From contig NZ_JBBOUK010000001.1 of assembly GCF_038006045.1 (NCBI RefSeq), positions 2,955,001 through 3,019,000 of the forward strand: a stretch of DNA of 64,000 nucleotides. Direction: 5' to 3'. The position numbers were made by a program, and so were the translations under genes. Of this stretch, positions 40,149 through 46,073 are shown piece by piece; within the stretch, counting starts at the first letter, position 1; each line of letters starts with the position of its first letter. This DNA is from Exiguobacterium sp. FSL W8-0210. GTDB taxonomy: Bacteria > Bacillota > Bacilli > Exiguobacteriales > Exiguobacteriaceae. A model generated the notes under the pieces. It did no database searches. It saw only the letters and a list, made by a program, of their open reading frames with translations, and was not told the DNA's origin.

Positions 40149-41381
40149 TTATTTACGATGTGCACGTCCCGGGCGACGGTTATTCGAACGACGCGTGTTT
40201 CCGCGTCCTTCTGTCGTCTTCCGTGATCCTTTACTTTGATCGTGCTGTGCGCGAATCGCCTCTTCAGACAATTCGACGACGATCGGCGTGACCGAGATGT
40301 TCAATTCCCGTTCCATATCACGGAACGTCCGACCATCTTTCGGTGTCACGATGGAAACGGCAATACCGTCGTTCCCAGCACGTCCCGTCCGACCGATTCG
40401 GTGAACGTAGCTTTCCGCATCGTCCGGTAAATCATAGTTAAAGACGTGTGTCACACCTGTCACATCGAGTCCACGCGAAGCAACATCTGTTGCGATCAGG
40501 AATTGTGTTTTTCCTTGATAGAACTTTGCCATCGCTTTTTCCCGTTTCCCTTGCGTTAGTCCACCGTGCAATTCATCCGTCGGATACCCTTGCATCTGCA
40601 TTTCTTCGTTCAATTTACTAACGCGACGTTGTGTACGGCAGAAAATGATTGCTGCGTATGGACGCATCTCGTCAAGCATCGTCCGCAGTGTCGCTTGTTT
40701 GCGGCGATCCGTCGTCTCGACGACGAACTGTTCGATCGCTTCAACAGTAATGCTTTCCGCTTCCACCTGTACTTCGACTGGATTACGCAAATACGTTTTC
40801 GCCAGTTCCTCTACTTTCGGTGGCATCGTTGCAGATAACATGACGAATTGACGATCAACCGGTGCTGCTTCGATGATGTCTTCAATTTCTGGCAAGAAAC
40901 CGATTTGCAGCATTTGGTCCGCCTCATCCAAGACAAGCGTCCGTAATTCACTTAAATCAAGTGTACCGCGACCGACGTGGTCAAGAATTCGTCCTGGTGT
41001 CCCAATGATGATTTGTGGCATCCGACCGAGACGTTGAATCTGTTTAAAGACGTCTTGTCCGCCATATACAGCAAGTGCACGATACTGTTCCGTGTTCCGA
41101 ATCAGTTTATGCGTCTCATCGGCAATTTGACGCGCAAGTTCACGTGTTGGTGCAACAATCAATGCTTGAACCGTTTGTGATTCGACATCGATTTGCTCAA
41201 GGATTGGTAAGAGAAACGCTAACGTCTTTCCTGTTCCCGTTTGCGCCTGCCCAATCAAGTCACGTCCGTCGAGTAATGACGGAATCGCTTGTTCTTGAAT
41301 GGGTGTTGGCTCCTTGATGCCTTGTTTTTGTAATTTTTTTATCCACAGATCGCTGATGTGTAATGTTTCAAATGTTGACAT
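40149..41381 (-). CDS. DEAD-box ATP-dependent RNA helicase
   Basis: 410 aa. All motifs are present: Q motif, AQTGTGKT (I), PTRELARQ (Ia), TPGR, DEAD in LVLDEADQML (II), SAT (III), IIFCRT, ATDVASRGLD (V) and HRIGRTGRAG (VI). A short basic Arg/Asn/Lys tail (RGNTRRSNNRRPGRAHRK) may add RNA affinity. Probably a cold- or ribosome-related helicase of the CshA/RhlE group; the paralogue is not assignable. AGGAGG is upstream. Its leader and first codons contain four DnaA boxes. Confidence 0.93.
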   Translation of the reverse strand: MSTFETLHISDLWIKKLQKQGIKEPTPIQEQAIPSLLDGRDLIGQAQTGTGKTLAFLLPILEQIDVESQTVQALIVAPTRELARQIADETHKLIRNTEQYRALAVYGGQDVFKQIQRLGRMPQIIIGTPGRILDHVGRGTLDLSELRTLVLDEADQMLQIGFLPEIEDIIEAAPVDRQFVMLSATMPPKVEELAKTYLRNPVEVQVEAESITVEAIEQFVVETTDRRKQATLRTMLDEMRPYAAIIFCRTQRRVSKLNEEMQMQGYPTDELHGGLTQGKREKAMAKFYQGKTQFLIATDVASRGLDVTGVTHVFNYDLPDDAESYVHRIGRTGRAGNDGIAVSIVTPKDGRTFRDMERELNISVTPIVVELSEEAIRAQHDQSKGSRKTTEGRGNTRRSNNRRPGRAHRK

Positions 41382-41459
41382 GATATATCCTCCTAAAAAT
41401 TATCCACAGAAAAAAGCTGTGGATAACCTGCTTCGCATAGACAAAAACAGTTATCCACA
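41339..41459. promoter_or_regulatory. Cluster of four perfect DnaA boxes
   Basis: TTATCCACA occurs at 41339-41347, 41400-41408 and 41451-41459, and its reverse complement at 41418-41426. Three lie between the DUF3817 and helicase genes and one within the first codons of the helicase. Two of them form an inverted pair (TTATCCACAG..CTGTGGATAA) that could also fold as a hairpin. Confidence 0.92.
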
Positions 41460-41485
41460 GCCGTGCTCTATTCAGTATACACAAT

Positions 41486-41785
41486 TTACGCGTTTGTTGC
41501 TTCCTGTTTTAGCTTCCAGTCGAGCACGAATGTACCAAACGGGATGAATGATGCAATGAACGCAATCCCAGCCTTGATAATCGACCAATCGTATTTGAAT
41601 TTCACGACCGCGAGCCAGAGTGCATACATGACGAATAAGACACCGTGAAGTGCACCAACGACCGAAACAGCTTGCGGAATATCCGCCATATACTTCAACG
41701 GCATCGCAATCAACAGTAAGACTAAAAACGAGATTCCTTCTAGTATCGCAATCATTCGGAATTGCCCAAGCGTAGTTCTTAACAT
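41486..41785 (-). CDS. DUF3817-family membrane protein
   Basis: 99 aa with three hydrophobic segments and the family pattern FRMIAILEGISFLVLLLIAMPLKY near the N-terminus and VSVVGALHGVLFVMYALW in the middle. Function unknown. AAGGAG precedes the ATG. Located just upstream of the DnaA-box cluster, in the same direction as the helicase. Confidence 0.85.
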   Translation of the reverse strand: MLRTTLGQFRMIAILEGISFLVLLLIAMPLKYMADIPQAVSVVGALHGVLFVMYALWLAVVKFKYDWSIIKAGIAFIASFIPFGTFVLDWKLKQEATNA

Positions 41786-42948: not shown

Positions 42949-43149
42949 TTAAAGTTTTACGACGTTAGCAGCTTGTGCTCCACGTGCGCCTTCAGTGATT
43001 TCGAACTCAACTTCTTGACCTTCGTCAAGTGTTTTGAAGCCTTCACCAGTGATTGCTGAGAAATGTACGAATACGTCTTCTCCGCCTTCAACTTCGATGA
43101 AACCGAAACCTTTTTCTGCGTTAAACCATTTTACTTTACCTGTGTTCAT
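42949..43149 (-). CDS. Cold-shock protein (CspA family)
   Basis: 66 aa single OB-fold RNA chaperone with RNP1 ([10 protein letters not shown]) and RNP2 (DVFVHFSAI). Start [10 protein letters not shown] at 43149; GGAGG lies 8-9 bases upstream. An in-frame extension of five residues is unlikely. The long leader of about 150 bases is typical of cold-regulated csp mRNAs. CspA/B/C naming is not possible from this copy. Confidence 0.93.
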
Positions 43150-43382
43150 GGGAACAACCTCCAAAAATAAATTACTTAATACATATGCTGAGCATATGAA
43201 AGGAATTCATTATTGTCCCGAAATACATGGAGCAACGAAAAGATTGTTCGTGACACGATGTGAATCCGTAATGACAATAACAATATTAAGCTAACGTAAG
43301 TATAAAATGGATGCGCTTTAAAAGTCAAGTTGCCAGACCAATGTTTTTCCAATTGATTCCACTTCTTCTACGTAACTCAAAC
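43150..43382 (-). promoter_or_regulatory. Leader and promoter region of the cold-shock gene
   Basis: About 230 bases with no gene. Probably includes the csp promoter and a structured, long 5' leader; no single clear promoter could be chosen. The left-hand part approaches the M6 protease terminator. Confidence 0.4.
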
Positions 43383-43423: not shown

Positions 43424-45817
43424 TTAACGGTGGATCCAGACTGCTCCAGCAGAGTTATCTTTTGCTTCACCGATGACTTGAATCTTCAGCCCGTTGTTCG
43501 GAAGCAATTTTCCTGCGTCCGGAATCAACTGGTTGATGTACGATTTTGAATCATCAAACTTCGTCACACCTGGGAGACCTTTGTAGTCGTATGTTCCACG
43601 TGATGGCGAATCGATGAGCCATGCAGGTGCTTTATCGTAGCTGAACGCAGCATCTGCGATCTGGTAACGTGTGCTTCCTGTCGTGACCGGCTTACCGTTA
43701 AGTGTTCCAACGATTGCTTCAGGGTGCGAGTCAACGACTCCGAGGAATCCTTCACCTGGGTGTACGCCAACCCAGTTATTGTCAAAGCTCGAGTCACCGT
43801 ACCAGACGACAAGACCTGTGTTGTACTTGACGCCACGTGCATGCTCGAGTGCTTTATCCGAGCCTGCATAGTTACGCCATTCGAGGTAGTATGCGTTATC
43901 AGCATAAGAGAAACCATTTGAAGCGATGAAACCATTCAATGTGAATTTCGGAGTGCCTTCTGCATCATCTTCGAAGACGACTTTTCCGTCGACTGTCAAC
44001 TTCGCGTTATCAAGTGCGAATCCGTCGAGTGCGAGACCCGCATCACCGACATATTCGAACTTCAACGTGACTTTTTTACCAGCAAATTCGCTCAGATCAT
44101 ACGATTTATCAACCCATGCACCTTTTGTTGAATCAGCGCGCTGATCGCCATCTGTATCTTCATCACCGATTTTGTCGATGATTTTTGATTGACCACCGGC
44201 AGTTGCCGTGACAGTCAAGAAGTCATAGTTGTATTCAACGTCATACAGTGTCTTGAAGTCGAATTTCGCTTCTTTTGCATTCGTCAAATCGAATTCTGGT
44301 GATGTCATCGACGTTTTCAAATCATTTCCTTTTGTACTGTAGTAATATTTTTGACCGAACGCCGGCGCGATACCTTTTACCGGTTTTTTCGGTAGGTTAA
44401 CCTTGATGATTCCTGGATTTTTTGATTTCGTTACGCTTTGGTCGAGGTACGATGCCGTCCCTGCCTTAGTGAGCGAATCAAAATCAATCTGTTGGATGTT
44501 CGCCCAGTTTCCACCCATCACGTTTTGGAAGAACTCTTTGTTTTGTGGCGAGAAACTTGTTGGTTCTGTTCCAGCAACTTTACCATTCCAGCTACCACCA
44601 CTCATGATCGACCATGAAGCGACCGGTTCACCTTGACCTGTGTACTGTGTATCGTACTCATCAGGAAGTCCAAGATCATGACCAAATTCGTGCGCGAAGA
44701 CGCCGACTGCACCATCTTCTGGTTGAACCGTGTAATCATATGCAGCCATTTTTCCGCCCCAGTAATTGACGCTTGCCGTCGTATCCGCTACAGGATATAC
44801 GCTACCAAGTGTCCAGCGGTGTGACCAGATCGCGTCGTCACCGAGCTTACCGCCACCCGCTTCTTGTCCAGTACCCGCGTGAATGATCATCAAGTGATCG
44901 ACGAGACCGTCTGGCTCATTCAAGTTGCCGTCTCCATCCATATCGTACTGGTCAAACTTATCGTAATCTGCTAAGTTGATGCCAGCTTTAACAGCTGCAG
45001 CTAACGAATCTTTGACGAGACCACGTGGTCCTTTTGCTCCCGGTAGATTATCATTCCCGCCTTTTGGATCATCTGAACCGTAATCCTTAGCAGTTCCTGG
45101 AACCGTTAGCCAGTTCGAAACCTTCCCGTCAACGGAATAACTTCCACCTGATTGCTCTTCGTAATATTGTTTGAATGTCTTTACTTTTTCTCCATTGAAG
45201 AGTTTGAATTCCTTATCACCAAACATTAAGTCTTGATAATGTTTTTGGTTGAAGTCATTCGAATACATATATCCAGGCTCCTGCACGACGTTATTATGCT
45301 TGAAGTCGCTATATTCGACGAGAAGAACGAGGACTTTATCCGTCCGTGTTGCTCCGTTATAGGCAGCCTGTTTCGCTTTATCAACTTTGACGAAGCCATT
45401 CGGATTGCCTTTTTTATAGTTGTCATGCTTTTTCTTTAATTGTTTAGCCAATTGATCTTTCTGTTTCGATAAGAAATCTTTTGTTTTCTTATCGAATGCG
45501 GCTTCTTTACTTGATTCATGATGATCATGATCATGATCGGCTGCCGGTTTCCCATTCGCCTTTTTATCAAGATACTTTTGAACGGCTTGTTGCTTCGTCG
45601 CGGCTGAAGCTGCTTTTGAAATGACCCCACGTTTTTCAAGCACTTTGACTAAACGATCCTGATCGACCGTATTTAAGTCCATTGGTGCACCAGAGGCTGC
45701 TTTTTCTGCTGCTTGTACGGATTTTACCTGCCCACCAGGTAAGACCGGACCGACAGCAAAAGCAGCTGCCGTAATTCCAGACAGTACGGCTAAGCTAAGC
45801 TGTTTCTTTTTTCCCAC
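43424..45817 (-). CDS. Secreted M6-family metalloprotease (immune inhibitor A type)
   Basis: 797 aa. GTG start with AGGGGGT upstream, then a Sec signal peptide ([21 protein letters not shown]) and a propeptide containing a His/Asp-rich stretch ([11 protein letters not shown]). The catalytic zinc motif is [14 protein letters not shown] at about residue 377; further M6 features are [23 protein letters not shown] and, towards the C-terminus, a MAM-like module with ANNW-type [20 protein letters not shown]. Bacillus InhA relatives degrade antimicrobial peptides and host proteins. An upstream TTG at 45880 is in frame but has no ribosome binding site. Confidence 0.9.
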
Positions 45818-46073
45818 GTGAATTGACCCCCTATGTAGTAGTGAAAAGTAAAAGATTACTATACTTTTCTGAATATTCAAATCTTAGTTTATTTTACTTC
45901 CTTAATCAATCTTTTCTAAGATAATTAGTGCTTTATGACCATACCTATTTTTGAGTATTAATTTCAAAAGTTTTTCAAAAGATTCTTTCACCTTTTTTTC
46001 AAAAAAAACATCCTTCCACCGTTTTAGAAAACGGTACGCTGAAAGCACTCTAATTCACTAAAGGGAGGATATA

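Follow-up and report, generated by a model that had tools for sequence, protein, structure and literature searches.

Four perfect DnaA boxes (TTATCCACA) lie within 121 bp at the start of a DEAD-box RNA helicase gene in Exiguobacterium sp. FSL W8-0210, and two of them also form the stem of a terminator-like hairpin in the helicase leader (Table 1). The cluster is real and conserved across the genus, and it looks functional. We consider it probable that it is an oriC-proximal cluster of the Bacillus subtilis type, at which DnaA would bind and lower helicase transcription while a side reservoir of DnaA is held. The helicase promoter, DnaA binding, repression, termination, and reservoir function discussed below are what we infer from the sequence.

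The boxes were located by a motif search of the window (the whole 64-kb stretch of DNA that was analysed), which confirmed the four matches that the first-pass annotation had placed in the leader and first codons of the gene and found no further perfect box anywhere else in the window. Read in mRNA sense, the order is putative -10, box A, box B (inverse), box A', AGGAGG, start codon, and coding box, with all three leader boxes (A, B, and A') upstream of AGGAGG. The putative -10 falls within a 14-nt block, AAATTGTGTATACT, that is invariant in 14/14 distinct leaders, to which 29 loci (19 genomes and 10 named records, some from the same species) were reduced. No good -35 was seen for this putative promoter, and a consensus scan gave no promoter on the minus strand. 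The helicase scores 473.6 bits against the CshA equivalog model NF053631 (NCBIfam) and, because this is under the curated cut-off of 646, is labelled only CshA-like. A second helicase relative in the same genome (C1:661989) is 48% identical, and among the matches listed, the other DEAD-box genes (C1:651360, 661989, 901963, and 3037944) have their nearest perfect box >15 kb away. Also on the minus strand, a cold-shock protein gene (window 42949-43164) is the third one upstream of the helicase, and an ORF at 43424-45880 (minus strand) encodes an 818-aa protein carrying a motif that we take to be zinc-protease-like.

Table 1 Features of the helicase leader and of related DnaA-box clusters. Positions refer to the window unless a contig (C1, of the same genome) or a locus (L) is given.
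Feature	Position	Strand	Remarks
DEAD-box RNA helicase, 410 aa, CshA-like	40149..41381	-	Pfam DEAD and Helicase_C
Coding-sequence DnaA box, codons L-W-I-K near start	41339..41347	+	perfect; 11/19 genomes
Helicase start codon	41379-41381	-	from sequence
Ribosome-binding site AGGAGG	41389..41394	-	from sequence; invariant among leaders
Alternative weaker hairpin, B with A'	41395..41427	-	loop CTTTTTT, then T5
DnaA box A', directly upstream of ribosome-binding site	41400..41408	+	perfect; 13/14 distinct leaders
Terminator-like element	41410..41461	-	12-bp stem GCTGTGGATAAC/GTTATCCACAGC from boxes A and B, then T6
DnaA box B, inverted relative to the other boxes	41418..41426	-	perfect; 14/14 distinct leaders
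DnaA box A (mRNA sense), first in leader	41451..41459	+	perfect; 14/14 distinct leaders
Putative -10 element TATACT	41474..41479	-	in invariant 14-nt block
Weak box GTATACACA, 7/9 match	41475-41483	+	overlaps putative -10
Upstream DUF3817 protein gene	41486..41785	-	ORF and profile matches
oriC cluster between dnaA and dnaN	C1:1396-1489		DnaA, DnaN identified
oriC cluster upstream of dnaA	C1:3111518-3111908		
dnaA-leader inverted pair	C1:3111889-3111914 (L249)	dnaA coding strand	own genome (G000)
Outside cluster, helicase	C1:2996339-2996459		about 115 kb from dnaA; outermost
Outside cluster, RlmI-like rRNA methyltransferase-domain gene	C1:3021716-3021768		about 90 kb from dnaA
Outside cluster, rlmH/yyzF/htrA	C1:3086381-3086609		about 26 kb from dnaA
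DegV-associated four-box clusters, sister genus	L155:1501-1635, L276:777-911, L277:792-926		

A genome-wide box count and cluster comparison, proposed in the first-pass annotation, gave 36 perfect boxes in the 3.35-Mb genome (8 contigs) against 10 for a reversed-motif control, and five clusters on contig C1. From the reversed-motif count, ~4e-4 perfect boxes are expected per 121 bp, in agreement with the earlier remark that even one such 9-mer would be rare by chance. Expectations for an equally dense cluster anywhere in the genome, computed from the observed density of 36 boxes, depend on how many independent events are counted: ~1e-8 for four independent boxes, ~3e-5 if the two hairpin arms are one event (three events), and ~0.05 if all three leader boxes are one event (two events).

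Within Exiguobacterium, the helicase and its leader were found in 19/19 genomes (own genome included). Boxes A and B are present in all 19 and A' in 18, the altered A' being that of the E. flavidum type (L097/L039). The 52-nt A-B element, searched with three loop positions left open, occurs once in each of the 19 genomes (control, 0), so that spacing and orientation, whose conservation the first-pass annotation had proposed to test, are kept across the genus. The coding box is found in 10/14 distinct leaders and 11/19 genomes, and is missing in the other 8. Its Ile codon is the rare ATA in 11/11 carriers, compared with 10/570 Ile codons elsewhere in the 19 helicase genes (21/581 overall), and this constancy points to selection acting on the DNA word as such. 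The coding box was probably present early and later lost in the E. sibiricum group, a reading drawn from its presence in the divergent E. flavidum-type genome rather than from a tree. Among the aligned leaders, 26/27 box columns and 41/45 inter-box columns are invariant; with the inter-box columns nearly as invariant as the boxes, something besides the boxes also seems to be kept. By comparison, the four-fold sites of the helicase gene are only 42–54% identical between the own type and the ten genomes of the other types.

Conservation in relatives, whose failure would have spoken against the first-pass reading, thus stands within the genus (18–19/19 for the leader boxes) and does not extend beyond it. 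No leader box was found among 38 helicase-relative loci outside Exiguobacterium, a few of which ended at contig ends; one of these loci carries a perfect box inside the gene. Likewise, no shared box element was seen by eye in the 18 of the 38 outside leaders that were folded (together with Exiguobacterium L053). Across 19 genomes of the sister genus, the helicase gene itself is absent: no close orthologue was found, the best matches being longer proteins of 45–47% identity, and neither was the helicase-type inverted-pair element. The patchy coding box and A' within the genus and the box-free leaders of distant helicases are what might be expected if the boxes were functionless products of chance or drift. 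We nonetheless regard this as extremely improbable, given a conservation far above that of four-fold sites and chance expectations of 1e-8 to 3e-5 unless the leader boxes are counted as a single event.

The leader boxes can also be read as RNA. A perfect 12-bp inverted repeat is built around boxes A and B, with T6 directly behind it, and the hairpin begins 25 nt past the DUF3817 stop codon. The bases of the boxes thus have the appearance of an intrinsic terminator or attenuator as well; the arrangement of a stable hairpin directly before a T-tract, by which intrinsic terminators are recognized, is conserved in 19/19 genomes. The first-pass annotation rightly pointed to possible hairpin folding of an inverted pair in the mRNA; it did not mention the stronger hairpin pairing 41451 with 41418 ahead of T6, and it missed both the terminator-like layout and the parallel upstream of dnaA described below. 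The loop region of the A-B element comprises 22 nt with an inner stem, and four variants of the element fold at -25.5 to -28.6 kcal/mol, while the alternative B-A' hairpin reaches -13.0 kcal/mol when folded without A. A simple consensus terminator scan did not list the A-B hairpin because it was limited to loops of 3–8.

How far this fold exceeds what the boxes alone impose was gauged by shuffling. A 96-nt leader stretch folds 3.9 standard deviations below shuffled sequences (z -3.9), mostly because the boxes are inverted. In a test that kept the boxes in place and shuffled every other letter, including T6, the hairpin stretch beat 1988/2000 shuffles and the whole leader 1892/2000. When loop letters alone were shuffled, 113, 198, 117, and 47 of 2000 shuffles folded as well in the four variants, a slight advantage. 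The terminator-like layout is thus plain, but the inner fold taken alone is weak evidence. An Rfam search of the leader returned a single match, far under its gathering score. No compensatory changes were found in the stem among the 14 distinct leaders, where both arms are invariant and leave no room for covariation.

These observations bear on an alternative in which the element is primarily an RNA device, either terminating the DUF3817 transcript or attenuating transcription in the helicase leader (cold-shock proteins or the helicase itself might, for instance, relieve it at low temperature), and the match to the DnaA box is secondary. The 12-bp stem with T6 just past the DUF3817 stop, the z-score, the invariant inter-box letters, the result of the fixed-box shuffles, and the ability of B to pair with A' as well are all in its favor. 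Moreover, if an RNA fold explained all leader boxes, only the coding box would be left, for which ~0.05 per genome is expected by chance. At low temperature, RNA helicases rise in both E. sibiricum and E. antarcticum (PMC2615787, PMC4247613), in published accounts that neither identify this gene nor allow a locus to be assigned. However, the 9-mers are exactly the oriC box, the coding box is preserved by way of a rare codon even though the A-B hairpin can form without it, and the fold is unremarkable under loop-only shuffles, with no compensatory changes and no Rfam family near threshold. On balance, we think that a primarily RNA-based function is unlikely.

The genomic position of the cluster speaks for DnaA. 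Five clusters account for 24 of the 35 boxes on C1; two are at oriC, and the other three are all on one side of it, at about 25–116 kb (distances assume a circular C1 of 3,112,010 bases with the dnaA start at C1:1; the cluster census left aside small-contig boxes, of which G000 (the own genome), G001, G023, and G030 have one each). The cluster, described in the first-pass annotation as far from any dnaA or dnaN gene, is thus far from them within the window; in the genome it is about 115 kb from dnaA, the corresponding distance being 116 kb for G012 and 127 kb for G001. Counterparts of the three outside clusters were recognized by position and spacing in the four other Exiguobacterium genomes mapped (G001, G005, G006, and G012), with adjacent genes checked in part (G006 was outside the cluster census, and its boxes were taken directly from the genome map). 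G005 has an additional three-box cluster (C1:17239-17366) ~17 kb away on the opposite side of oriC, including one 2-bp-spaced pair. In box density, oriC proximity, and conservation, the helicase cluster therefore matches an oriC-proximal DnaA-box cluster (DBC), a type reportedly described in B. subtilis by Okumura et al. in 2012 (cited in PMC5295017 and PMC13220808). Clusters of this known kind are present in the genome, and the helicase cluster takes its place among them by position and make-up.

The other two outside clusters have features of their own. The rlmH/yyzF cluster (L024:1489-1717) comprises four boxes, including a 3-bp-spaced double box, within and close to a yyzF-like gene that is flanked by rlmH and htrA; this gene belongs to the YyzF family (PF14116, TIGR04129), and the HtrA protease gene adjoins it. 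The methyltransferase cluster (L019:1501-1553) has three boxes, two of them forming TTATCCACATGTGGATAA, around a TATACT -10-like element, and the ORF just upstream of it in the own genome presumably encodes an IS3-type transposase, judging by its general look. Clusters outside oriC are often located at genes acting on RNA, namely rlmH, the RlmI-like gene, and the RNA helicase here, and in B. subtilis trmE and yydA (the latter being, we assume, rlmH), both of which act on RNA.

Clusters confined to within 116 kb of oriC, on one side, could also be explained by a pure DnaA reservoir that titrates DnaA near oriC, with the location at the helicase incidental. Deletion of six B. subtilis clusters leads to early initiation according to the review PMC5295017, which states elsewhere that no B. 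subtilis clusters with a significant role in initiation control were identified. Sister-genus genomes are informative here: in 4/4 mapped genomes, all without the helicase, a different cluster of 2–3 boxes occurs at the start of an S66 LD-carboxypeptidase gene (L205, L206, L207, and L278), ~3.6 kb from the DUF3817 gene. We rejected the idea that this is the same site as the helicase cluster; the intervening genes differ, and we therefore speak of the same neighborhood only. The inverted pair of the S66 cluster has a 35-bp step, as in the methyltransferase cluster of Exiguobacterium, and a cold-shock protein relative lies near DUF3817 in 2/3 sister-genus stretches examined (L206 and L207). The sister genus also has 2–3 boxes at the place of the rlmH cluster in 4/4 mapped genomes (adjacent rlmH confirmed in three) and, in 3/4, four boxes clustered shortly after the end of a DegV-family gene, 50–65 kb from oriC. 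A pure reservoir, however, would not need A and B at a fixed place, and these occupy the same position between putative promoter and start codon in 19/19 Exiguobacterium genomes, which makes this explanation quite improbable in our view.

The layout of the helicase leader recurs upstream of dnaA. Genomes of the family were searched for two perfect boxes in inverted orientation (gap 0–30), followed by two letters and then four T; 38/38 matched (control, 0), each with one match formed by the palindrome TGTGGATAA-NN-TTATCCACA and a T-tract. In 32 genomes, the T-tract lies 94–97 nt from the dnaA start codon on the same strand and the same stretch; in the remaining six, the palindrome is at the end of a contig and dnaA at its beginning, which fits the same distance if the contig is circular. 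The second match in the 19 genus genomes is the helicase element; near oriC, an additional match occurs in G005 and in G010. When 151 genomes sampled evenly from the class were searched, the element was detected in 11/11 family members and 3/140 others; in these three, dnaA is not beside it within the reach of the loci. Among the same 151, the reverse layout (B-A' type) was detected in four genus members and six others, beside dnaA in 4/6 of these others. By this class survey, such a layout is uncommon, and the helicase leader has it in common with the stretch preceding dnaA. Both leaders have an inverted perfect pair followed by a T-tract (T4-T5 for dnaA) on the coding strand of the gene, and the dnaA element, too, looks like an intrinsic terminator. 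Unlike the helicase pair, whose boxes are 24 bp apart, the dnaA boxes are separated by 2 bp, forming a 9-bp stem with a 4-nt loop, and are part of oriC. Upstream of the dnaA element, a promoter-like TTGCCA-17-TACACT was read by eye in G000 and G005.

Taken together, the clustering near oriC, the conservation across the genus, the DNA-level constraint on the coding box, and the match of the rlmH/yyzF cluster to a known B. subtilis cluster support the suggestion, already made in the first-pass annotation, of a DnaA-controlled gene and/or a titration cluster. In the preferred reading, DnaA would occupy the four boxes just downstream of the putative helicase promoter and block the path of RNA polymerase in the leader, which would be the main route to reduced helicase transcription. 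The weak box overlapping the putative -10 may also contribute, and the cluster would hold some DnaA away from oriC as a nearby reservoir. Because boxes A and B are also hairpin arms, a polymerase stalled by DnaA would stall where its nascent RNA can terminate; speculatively, a stall at B or A' might keep polymerase near T6, where the A-B hairpin could release it. Several observations count against this reading: the coding box is missing in 8/19 genomes, A' is altered in the E. flavidum type, and the extra G005 cluster is on the opposite side of oriC. Tandem double boxes with 2–3 bp spacing, which E. coli DnaA prefers (PMC11317965), are contained in the rlmH and oriC clusters, whereas none was found in the helicase cluster (best partner at such a spacing, 5/9), and this counts against strong DnaA binding there.

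A broader possibility is that Exiguobacteriaceae use boxes arranged as terminator-shaped inverted pairs, in the dnaA leader and, in one genus, the helicase leader, that are read twice, as a DNA roadblock and as an RNA attenuator, with bound DnaA setting termination in a small regulon that ties initiation to RNA remodelling; as a whole, this proposal seems doubtful to us. The coupling of replication to ribosome and RNA remodelling through DnaA, also raised in the first-pass annotation, is similarly a hypothesis here. If DnaA does control the helicase, the Firmicutes DnaA regulon would reach RNA remodelling, echoing the DnaA site detected upstream of rne by E. coli ChIP-seq (PMC11317965). More generally, the related terminator-like layouts of the dnaA and helicase leaders would provide an example of DNA-binding sites with a possible second role as RNA attenuators.

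The literature searched offered little on such a link. A query of open-licence PMC articles for "DnaA box" and Exiguobacterium returned a sole match, concerning a Psychrobacter plasmid, and DnaA control of a DEAD-box gene did not come up in the titles and abstract openings listed from the same literature; the word DnaA is absent from PMC6178137, on B. subtilis DEAD-box genes. DARS and datA are defined by box arrangement with IHF/Fis sites and by their effect on the nucleotide state of DnaA. A reactivation site of this type, which the first-pass annotation had also considered, is without support, and a review lists datA, DARS1, and DARS2 as absent from B. subtilis (PMC13220808).

The closest known systems are those of B. 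subtilis and E. coli. According to PMC4447404, the sites bound in vitro by DnaA of B. subtilis are oriC, a region upstream of yydA that spans yyzF, and ywcI/vpr, gcp/ydiF, trmE, ywlC, and sda; DnaA appears to repress several of these genes, with ywlC, vpr, yyzF-yydD, trmE-noc, and ywcI-sacT given as DnaA-repressed promoters. The main text of that paper never uses the word helicase and thus names no cluster at such a gene. As in B. subtilis, boxes in Exiguobacterium are clustered outside oriC, mostly at promoter regions, and the rlmH/yyzF and yydA clusters correspond in gene context. The helicase cluster differs in its inverted pairs, which shape a terminator-like hairpin, and its DnaA binding is predicted. 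It likewise resembles the DnaA-repressed promoters in having boxes in the promoter or leader, several of those targets also acting on RNA, and differs in its target gene, for which regulation is proposed. In E. coli, DnaA has been described as a roadblock promoting termination inside transcribed regions, at asnC and guaB (cited in PMC11317965, whose ChIP-seq did not detect DnaA at guaB). There, too, a DnaA box in a transcribed region is an obstacle to RNA polymerase; by contrast, the helicase leader has several boxes, two of which also form a hairpin with a T-tract. Relative to known clusters, what is new here is therefore the target gene, an RNA helicase, and the terminator-shaped layout.
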